From NCBI GenBank assembly GCA_002189035.1, contig NEEC01000012.1, forward strand, positions 2,356,001-2,420,000: 64,000 bases of DNA, read 5' to 3'. Under the pieces are notes generated by a model. The model ran no database searches. It was given only the letters and a program-made list of their open reading frames with translations, and was not told where the DNA came from. Position numbers and translations under genes: made by a program. Below, piece after piece: positions 2,393 to 8,514 of the stretch; within the stretch, counting starts at the first letter, position 1; each line of letters opens with the position of its first letter. The stretch comes from Utricularia gibba (lineage: Eukaryota > Streptophyta > Magnoliopsida > Lamiales > Lentibulariaceae).

Positions 2393-3926
2393 TCAGTAAA
2401 CCATCTGTGGCTCAAACTCTGCGAGGTCGACGGAGCCTGATTCAACGGGCTTCATCAGATACGCAGCCAGGATCTCAGAGAGTAGCGCAGCAACAAGAGG
2501 GATCTTCTTCAGGTTCTTGACAAAAGGAATGTCATCAGACTCCCCGAGTGCCTGCAGTTGCTGGTTGATGACTACCATCCTGTCCAGCTTCCTCTTGAAT
2601 TCTGGGTTCTCCACATCCAGCACGGCTGGAAAAATTCTTGCAGTTGTACGGTTGGTCTGTGAGGGAATCAATCCAGCAGTCGGTTTATGTTCATCTGGAA
2701 AAAGATACTTGATCACTGGACAGTTACCTCTATGATGACATGCATGTCGAATTCCTTTGTGTTAAGGCCAATGCCCTCATAGAATGCGGTTCTTTGGCAA
2801 TCATTGAGGTACATCGTTACATAAACCTGCATGGAGCCATTGTAGACAAGATGAGGAGCTAGTTCACCATGTGTAAGAAACATGAAGTAAACGTTTTTCT
2901 GGAATTTTAGTGGATACCGAAAGACAGAAGAAACGAGCCCAGAGCTTGGCCTTCCAGTCGTTCAGAAACTGGGGCTGTGCCTTCAACAATGCAGTGAAGA
3001 AATCACCATGCCGATTCTCATCTTGGCACCAGTTCTCGAAGTATTTAAAGATGGGATAGCACTGAAACTCAGGGTTCTGTTTCAGATGTCTGTATATGGT
3101 GATGTATCTCCAGTATCCTATCTTCTCAGACAGGTATGTTGCATAGAATATGAACTTTGGCTTGAAGAAGGTATACTTTCTTGCTTTTGTCAAGAACCCC
3201 AAGTCCAGAGCCAAGTTGAAGTCAGATAGTCCCTTGTTCAAGAAGCTGACGCATTACCAAAGCAAGAAAATATCAGTAACACAACACAAAACAACAGATG
3301 CATGCTCTCAGCTTGAAGCAACACTTACCCAGCATGACGAGCTTCATCTCGTGACATTAGAGAGAAAATTTCAGCGACCACGGGGTTCGTTTTCTATGCA
3401 AGGAACAATAGTGTAGATTCGGTAAACAAGCATGTATGGCTGTTTTGGAAGAGAAAGGCGAAATGGGCATGCATACCTTGAGCCTCCTTCCAAGCTCTTT
3501 GTAAAGAAGGAAACCAGAGAATTCAGCAGTGCAAGACCTTTCCAAGAACTCGACAAAAATAATTCTTAAAGGGCCATCGAGTTTGTCAGCAGCTTCCTTG
3601 AACTCCTTGTTCCTGACGAAATGGGTTTGATTGAAATCAGTCTTGAACTCCTGTAAACAAGCCTCGAAATCAGCGAGATCGAGGTTCTTGTTGATCTCCG
3701 TGCTGAAAAGCTTCTCCATTTCGTCGAAATCGGTGGTGTAGAAACGTGGGGTCAAAAGGGTTTCCTTTATTTCTTGCTTCTGATTCTTCTTCTTGCCGGC
3801 GACTGCAGGTGCTGGGGGAGGCGGAGTGGCAGCCGCTGACATTCGAACGGTGAACGCTCTGGATGCTGCGGCTCTGGGAGCGCCGAAGTTCATGATTGGC
3901 TTCACCAATGCCATTTCTGCCGCCAT
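2393..3926 (-). CDS. CRD1: Magnesium-protoporphyrin IX monomethyl ester oxidative cyclase, chloroplastic (CRD1/CHL27)
   Basis: Catalytic subunit of the aerobic cyclase that forms the isocyclic E ring of chlorophyll, giving divinyl protochlorophyllide; a di-iron enzyme of plastid membranes. Five exons (3477-3926, 3329-3393, 2918-3245, 2728-2826, 2393-2656) join in phase into 401 residues, the usual family length. The start at 3926 ([10 protein letters not shown]) gives a Ser/Ala-rich transit peptide of about 45 residues before the conserved core that begins [11 protein letters not shown]. Di-iron ligand motifs are visible: an [10 protein letters not shown] helix, SRDEARHAG, and [12 protein letters not shown]. 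The C-terminus [16 protein letters not shown] is family-typical. The frame is intact, with no unusual features. ALADIN lies next on the same strand; I recall the Arabidopsis homologues as also close together. Confidence 0.97.
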
Positions 3927-4726: not shown

Positions 4727-7700
4727 TTACGGAGCAGCCTTGGGGTGGAAGATGAGTGGGTATGTGCAGCAGAATCCACTGCTCCAACACTGCAGAATAT
4801 TTTTGTGAATAAAAGTTTCACTAATTCCCATGTTTAAGACAAAAGGAATTTTCAAGTCATGCACATTGTGGATACTATACGGAGCATGTGTCTCGGGCAG
4901 TGGTGCCTATGAAGAGAAATCATGCACATAGTTTACTGGTCTATAGCATATTCACTGGGACATGTTCCTCTATGTATTTTTATGAACAGGGTACTTACCA
5001 CAGACAGCAGGGGTCCTTGCTTGTATTTGCTGTGGTATGAAAAAGCTAGAGGCTTTGGAGAATCTCCGGGACCTCTGATGAATCCACTGAGTTTCAAGAA
5101 AGAAACCAGGAACAACAAAAGGTGACAAATTATTACATTAACGTTAAATGAGCTTAAGAACAGAAAGAGTGGCACCGACATCAATGTTGCTGAGACTAAA
5201 GGAGCTCTTTTTACATCATATATCGCAACCAGACCTCTGTACAACTCATCACCATCTCTATATGATACTGCAAGACGCTCTCCTGAAGCATCCAAAGCTA
5301 TCTTCTCAATTTTGTGGCTGCAGGAAGGCAAAGAATCTAACCTAAATATCCCTTAAAAAGTGCTGTGCAGCACAGTACAGGATGTTCATAATTGTAGATG
5401 ATACATAAAAAATCAAGGTAATAATAAATGTACGCGAGGAATATTCCAGGGTACAATTAATACAAGATAAAGACATAAAAAGAAAGCTACAAAGAAATTG
5501 AACATGTCATGCCCTCAGCAGGAAGAGAGAATGGAAAATCTCAGTCAGATGAAATCAGGATTGCGTACCTGCCAGTCAAGGATTTGATCTCTGGCAATTC
5601 AACCGGAATCAGATGTGCATCTGAAACGGAAACAATTGGCTCCGTGTCAAAATGATGTATTTTTCTTATTGAACGGCATGGAGATCATGCAAAGGAGGTG
5701 ATAAGGCTAATTCTCAACTATAGCAAATGACTAGTTGATATTTAGTACACACTTCTTTGTTTGAGGTCATTATTTTCCGATTTAGAAGATATTATATATC
5801 AGAACTAAGAATAAACAGACACCAGAAAACTTGAGATTAACCTAGTGATGGTGGTCTGGATGAAAAGTGGATTGAACCTAATGTATAGGACTCTGAGAAG
5901 GAAAGGAGTAGCATACGCCCATCAGGATCCCATGTTGCTCCCTGGCATCAATTATAAGAACCATATGTAAATAAAACAAGTTTATTGAAAGCCACAACAG
6001 GTGAAATCCCACTGTCCATTTAAATATGTTCGCTGAAAAATAGACATGCCAGCGAAGTTAAGAGAAATTACAGAAGCTGATGGGCATAGAGTTTATAAGC
6101 AGCATATCAACTTTTTATACTGATTGTTTTATTATACCATTCACCACAAAATAAAATTTTTTGTTCTCTTCAGAGGACCTTATTCTAATTCCAAGTCCTC
6201 AGAGTCTTTTCCCCTTTGTGACACATATTCATGGCTTGCATATAGAAACTCTGTGTGAGGCGAAAAAATTCTGAGGACTCTAAAGTAGAATAAGGGGCTC
6301 TGAAGAGTGAACATAAAAAGTATTTTATGGTGAATCATATAATGAAAACAATCAGCATGCAAAGGAAAACAATCTAGACTTCTAAACATATTGGACGATC
6401 ATGAACCATCATAAATTACCTATAACTTCAGATCTTACTTTTCATAACGGCATAATAAAAAAATCAGGGAATAATGAGTGACAAACCGTAATAATTCCAT
6501 TTTTTGAAGACCATGGCACTGATGTCCACGTGCTTGTTTCCCAGAGGTAAAACGTTCCATCACTGCACAAAAAAAGATCATCTGAGTTTTTCTTAGTATG
6601 CGATCTCCGCTCAACACAGTGACAACATGATTGTACGAAAAGTTCAATTGAAGTACAATTTGGCAGCAAGAAAGTAATCGCCTGATGGAGACCATTTCAG
6701 CAAAGATACACCCCAAAACCTCGCCGAATAGGTGTGCCAATGCCTGTGAAAATATCAATGATAAGAAAAAGATGTAGGAAAAGAGAATAAAATTTAGGAT
6801 GCAATAACTGATCAATTACCTCGTGAAACATCCCAGATAGTGAAAGAAGAGTTTGCCGATGAAGCTGAAGCTAAATACGTAGAACCAAGTCAAGGAAACT
6901 TTCACAAAGAACTGCTTGTTTTCATCATCAATCAATGACTTGGTATTAAGAATGATAGCATTGCAAGGATGATAATACGTATGTGGTTTGAGAAGCTTAC
7001 AGTATGCTCCACTATTGATGCATAACTAATCTGAAAACTAAAAATGAGGAGGGAAATAAATGATATCACAAATCCAAACGCTAATAGTTTCAGTACAGAT
7101 TTGAAATAGTTTAAACGAGGCTAGCAATGAATAATTAAGAGGAAACATAGTATTTAGTTAAGTGAACTGTAGGATAGTCCCTTTCACAAAATTTATCTTC
7201 AAAAGGTTCAAAATGTATAAAATAAATGAGGTTGGTGAGGATATCTTCCATCTGGGCTCCATGAAAGTGCAGTTACTTGCTCATCTGAAGTTCGAAGAAA
7301 ATCTACCAAGGTCCAACTAGTTTCACAAAGCCGTGGAAATACACTGAAGCTTCGCCCAGATCGAACTGATGCTGCATTTCCACAACAGGAAGCAGCCCAT
7401 ATGCAAATTCCACCCCTATCAAAAAGTGTCAAAACGTTGTATCTGAATATAGAATTTGCAGGACACTTGAAGCGCCAAAAACTTGATATGAAGCAATGCA
7501 CAAGGGGTATCCATAACAGAAACTAACTTGCATGCAATAGCAAGTGTCCTTCCTCCATTTGGTCTCCATTCAAGACATCTCACATCTTTCTGGGCATCAT
7601 TTGACAGAATACAAAGAGACTTGCCATCTTAAACAGACATGAAGGGATAAACAACGCAGAGTAAATAATGATGCCTGCACAACAAAGAGAGAGGGAGCGG

Positions 7701-8514
7701 TGGTAAGAATTGGTGTCAACTGAGTCTTCATTGTAGTCACGAATTATCACGCGATTCGGCCCAGAGGTAAATGCCACAATTTGTTTGTGCTTGTGCCAAC
7801 TTACACAATGAAGATTATTGTTCTTCAATAAATTTACCTGAAAAATGCATATCCAAAAGGTCTGATGCTCTCTTGGCTCTAAAGTCGCTTCAATGAATGT
7901 AACTTGGTATGTTCATCACATGAGATACATTTCAAAATCCTCAAAATGTAACCCAAAAGCAAGAAACCACTTTAAATAAAAAAAGGTCTTGCAGAAAGAG
8001 CAAACAAAAAAAAAAAAAACTGGAAGAAATCATTTCAAACATTCATTACATCAGCATGCTGGAAAAGCAGCTTCAAAGAGCGCCACCACACAGATTGATA
8101 GGCTACCAATAAAATGCCTGAAACCCCTTTCCTTTGTAAACCAGCATCCTGTTCCGCTGGTGCATCCGGTGGATTATGTACTTCAAAAGGTACGGGTGTA
8201 AATAATGTTCCCTGTAATAATTTCTTCTTTCAACAAAACTACGGCAACCCATTAACCAGAAAAAATCAAAACTTTCGGATCAGAGAATTACGAGAATTTT
8301 TCCATAGATGTTTCTTGCTTGATCATCACTAAAGCTGTCTGCAGTAACTGAGATGATCACAGAAGGTTTTATACATAAGATTCAAGCGGTGGCAGGTTCG
8401 TGATATCGGAAGCTTGGGCTGCAGTCTAGATATATCATTGAAGTGAAACGAGATACCAAATTCCCTGTTGATTTCGCAGATATTAACGGTGCCTGGCTGC
8501 GGGAATGAAGGCAT
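4727..8514 (-). CDS. AAAS: Nucleoporin ALADIN (AAAS homologue), WD-repeat; apparent disruptions in exons 4 and 8
   Basis: ALADIN is a WD40 scaffold nucleoporin of the nuclear pore complex. Fourteen exons on the minus strand: 8457-8514, 8292-8347, 8050-8211, 7721-7837, 7528-7627, 7245-7415, 6820-6878, 6657-6743, 6487-6562, 5842-5941, 5569-5620, 5180-5317, 4999-5086, 4727-4789. They encode about 442 residues beginning MPSFPQPGTVNICEINREF. Diagnostic stretches are VSWHKHKQIVAF, LEWRPNGG, GGICIWAAS, ALSWSPDGR, DGTFYLWET, GATWDPDGRM, IALDASGERLAVSY and GFIRGPGD. Intron 6 (6879-7244) is a U12-type AT-AC intron. Two oddities: exon 4 lacks a usable GT donor in the right phase, and exon 8 needs one extra base in a G run to stay in frame. 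Every other phase fits. As written the frame is broken, so this is either a damaged allele or an assembly error; the rest of the gene looks under constraint. Confidence 0.93.

Follow-up and report, generated by a model that had tools for sequence, protein, structure and literature searches.

The window analysed in this work, a stretch of 64,000 nucleotides of the Utricularia gibba genome, carries on its minus strand a gene model for the nuclear-pore protein ALADIN (AAAS) that extends from start to stop codon over positions 4727..8514 and is divided into 14 exons. A second copy of the gene, with an intact frame of 442 codons, is present on another contig of the same genome (G000:C213), and the 14-exon structure is common to both copies. 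The 442 amino acids of this paralogue match the Arabidopsis chain named 'Aladin' (PDB 9SOB chain 4) over its full length with an E value of 8e-193, the best non-ALADIN matches having E values of about 1e-19, and the window copy is identical to the same chain at 279 of 437 aligned sites. The full-length match and the shared exon structure support the identification of the gene as ALADIN, which had been proposed in a first-pass annotation of this DNA. No relatives were found in viral contigs, and an Rfam search of the window found no RNA family. Directly downstream of ALADIN, at 3357-3926 on the minus strand, lies a first exon resembling that of magnesium-protoporphyrin IX monomethyl ester cyclase (AcsF/CHL27). 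In Arabidopsis the counterpart of the latter, At3g56940, is presumably also close to ALADIN (At3g56900), which suggests that this neighbourhood is an old gene order.

Our analysis concerns intron 6 of the window copy (6879..7244, minus strand, 366 nt, phase 2), which almost certainly belongs to the minor class (U12 type) and, within it, to the AT-AC subtype. It is preceded by exon 6 (7245..7415, minus strand, 171 nt), whose 3' end encodes ALSWSPDG plus the bases AG and whose last letters read ...GGAGCCCAGATGGAAG (also as ...AGCCCAGATGGAAG) up to the final base at 7245. Exon 7 (6820..6878, minus strand, 59 nt) begins at 6878 with GTATTTAGCTTCAGC and encodes (R)YLASASSANSSFTIWDVSR. On the minus strand, the intron runs from ATATCCTCACC at 7244 to TTCCTTGACTTGGTTCTAC at 6879, its end also being read as TTTCCTTGACTTGGTTCTAC, and its phase can be seen in the codons GGA AG/G TAT TTA, which give G R Y L. 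The 5' splice site ATATCCTC (7237..7244, minus strand) agrees with ATATCCTT at 7 of 8 positions. The branch site TTCCTTGAC (6889..6897, minus strand), with the branch A at 6890, scores 9/9 against TTCCTTRAC, and the intron closes on a terminal AC (6879..6880, minus strand) within TTCTAC. From the branch A to the last intron base the distance is 11 nt, within the reported optimum of 11-13 nt (PMC3584512). The coordinates and letters that the first-pass annotation had given for this intron proved exact, and its placing of the branch site, of the branch A relative to the intron end and of the end of exon 6 was borne out.

The corresponding intron of the paralogue (G000:C213, L004 4256..3813) lies at the same place in the gene and in the same phase, and it shares the AT-AC ends and the branch site. 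Its letters are ATATCCACATA ... TTTCCTTGACTTGGTTTTAC (ATATCCAC...TTCCTTGACTTGGTTTTAC), with an ATATCC start, an identical TTCCTTGACTTGGTT, the same 11-nt spacing and an AC end within TTTTAC, and the paralogue's other 12 introns all start with GT and end with AG. The two introns differ in length (444 nt in the paralogue, 366 nt in the window copy), in the first base of the next exon (A in the paralogue, G in the window copy) and in the 5' splice site, the paralogue's ATATCCAC scoring 6/8 and the window copy's ATATCCTC 7/8 against RTATCCTT. Between the copies, dN is about 0.094 and dS about 0.31; both keep the AT-AC signals despite this divergence, and the signals have therefore outlived a duplication of considerable age. 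The interior of the intron is 68% identical between the copies, while its last 60 columns are 92% identical, compared with 71% for the last 60 columns of the other comparable introns, pooled (Fisher p = 3e-4). Just upstream of the branch site, a stretch of 42 nt (6899..6940, minus strand; L004 3833-3874 in the paralogue) is identical at 37 of 42 positions (88%), the rest of the intron standing at 68%, and no further copy of it was found elsewhere in the genome. This stretch of about 42 nt might be a splicing control element through which retention of the minor intron would tune ALADIN levels, a proposal that we consider quite unlikely.

Taken singly, either motif is unremarkable, its count in the 64 kb being close to that expected by chance: there is one TTCCTTRAC where 1.6 are expected, and there are 15 RTATCCTY where 9 are expected. 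What is remarkable is that both are present at a junction dictated by the protein. At such a junction, the chance of finding both is about 2e-4 (ATATCCT) times about 3e-4 (the branch motif within a 14-position window), or about 5e-8. A blind scan of both strands of the 64 kb for a 5' site, a branch site and a matched terminus returned a single pair, which is intron 6, and Markov-1 random windows contain on average 0.12 such pairs.

Genes for U11 (74 bits), U12 (86 bits) and U6atac (87 bits) snRNAs were found in the same genome above the Rfam cut-offs. For U4atac there was a sub-threshold match of 35 bits against a gathering score of 53, which does not in itself indicate absence, and the zinc finger zf-U11-48K gave no match in one search, which ran exon by exon with a model of 25 residues. 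GTAAGGAA is present in the U12 gene and AAAGGAGAGA in the U6atac gene; these are the stretches that should base-pair with the branch site and the 5' site, respectively. Only one U12 snRNA gene was detected in the genome, and it is located on the same contig as the window, about 55 kb outside it (G000:C244:2301509-2301660). In the likely course of splicing, U11 snRNA and its proteins would read ATATCC at the 5' end, and U12 snRNA would pair with TTCCTTGAC, leaving the branch A bulged out. The U4atac/U6atac.U5 complex would then join, and U6atac would take the place of U11 at the 5' site. Cutting at the AC, 11 nt past the branch A, would allow GGAAG to be joined to GTATTTAGC, giving the WD40 segment SWSPDGRYLASAS.

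The choice of junction was examined by listing exhaustively every donor/acceptor combination between exon 6 and exon 7. If intron 6 is retained, translation continues as GRYPHQPHLFYTF and then meets a stop; retention truncates the protein, and the intron must therefore be removed. Six shifted junctions (AT-AC, TA-CG, AT-GT, TC-TA, CC-AT and CT-TT) yield the identical WSPDGRYLASAS protein, and AT-AC is the sole recognised splice pair among them. Arabidopsis ALADIN (PDB 9SOB) and human ALADIN align over the junction without gaps, the alignment of the paralogue with the Arabidopsis protein reading DEQVTALSWSPDGRYLASASFANSSFTIWDV versus DEQISALSWSPCGRYLASASYDSSSFTIWDV. The intron could in principle be of the U2 type with AT-AC ends, a kind that is known and that makes up 0.01% of the U2-type introns of Arabidopsis (PMC7367187), or it could be a GT-AG or GC-AG intron encoding a slightly different protein. 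Ten GT-AG or GC-AG pairs are indeed stop-free and keep the frame, for example GCCCAG at 7257 joined to the AG at 6871, but each loses SPDGRYLA or more, residues that are conserved in Arabidopsis and in the paralogue, and none yields the conserved WSPDGRYLASAS reading. The earlier statement that AT-AC ends restore GRYLASAS in phase and that no GT-AG choice does so thus held under exhaustive enumeration. Against a U2-type intron with AT-AC ends stands the combination of ATATCC with a fully matching TTCCTTGAC that is 11 nt away from the intron end, a U12 signature retained in the paralogue, and we regard both of these readings as highly improbable. We assign intron 6 to the U12 type from its motifs and the spacing between them, from the uniqueness of the reading frame, from preservation in the diverged paralogue and from the U11, U12 and U6atac genes, and on this sequence evidence the RNA is presumably spliced at the AT-AC junction.

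A different question is whether the window copy is still in use. It may be that the intron is a true U12-type AT-AC intron residing in a recently broken duplicate, the working ALADIN intron being that of the paralogue, and we give this a substantial probability, somewhat below even. The window copy looks damaged in the assembly, with two apparent lesions that the first-pass annotation did not mention, and the paralogue's frame is intact. Intron 4 starts with TT at 7718..7719 (minus strand), where the paralogue has GT; this is an apparent splice-site lesion, and use of the closest GT, which lies one base upstream, would put the reading out of frame. In exon 8, the window copy reads GGGG at 6711..6714 (minus strand), one base short of the paralogue's GGTGG, and the resulting frameshift leads to an early stop soon after. 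On the other side, the exons past the lesion remain open in the paralogue's frame, and private changes relative to Arabidopsis ALADIN number 26 in the window copy and 21 in the paralogue (p = 0.56). Because the window-copy protein has evolved no faster than that of the paralogue, the lesions either arose recently or are assembly errors, and the exon 8 difference falls within a G run. If the copy is damaged, its splicing may no longer matter. The lesions bear on whether the window copy is still used, and the classification of intron 6 as U12-type AT-AC is unaffected by them.

U12-type AT-AC introns are already known as a class, and a plant genome has hundreds of them. ALADIN intron 6 resembles them in its 5' site, branch site, spacing and AC end, as well as in its non-zero phase and in the presence of U11, U12 and U6atac genes in the genome; there is no substantial difference, the 5' site departing from ATATCCTT by one position. 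Intron 6 is a genuine, well-preserved and ordinary member of this class. The first-pass annotation had called AT-AC introns a small minority even among minor introns, which is overstated. By the figures of IAOD (PMC7367187 Table 2), their share of U12 introns is about a quarter in dicots (Arabidopsis 26%, soybean 23%), and it is 22% in rice and 13% in maize. Plant CBP20 genes (PMC5932401) offer a parallel, in that they too are conserved nuclear genes with a single minor intron, of the U12 type, that has been kept in one position. The gene is a different one, and the conservation of the ALADIN intron is known from the two copies of one genome, conservation outside U. gibba having been assessed at the protein level only. 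We found no main text that ties ALADIN or At3g56900 to minor introns, and supplementary or database lists may record it.

Gene finders limited to GT-AG and GC-AG introns will connect exons 6 and 7 wrongly in the two ALADIN copies, and the annotation at these exons is worth checking in both. The pair of copies also constitutes a small natural case in which an AT-AC minor intron has outlasted a duplication without conversion to GT-AG.
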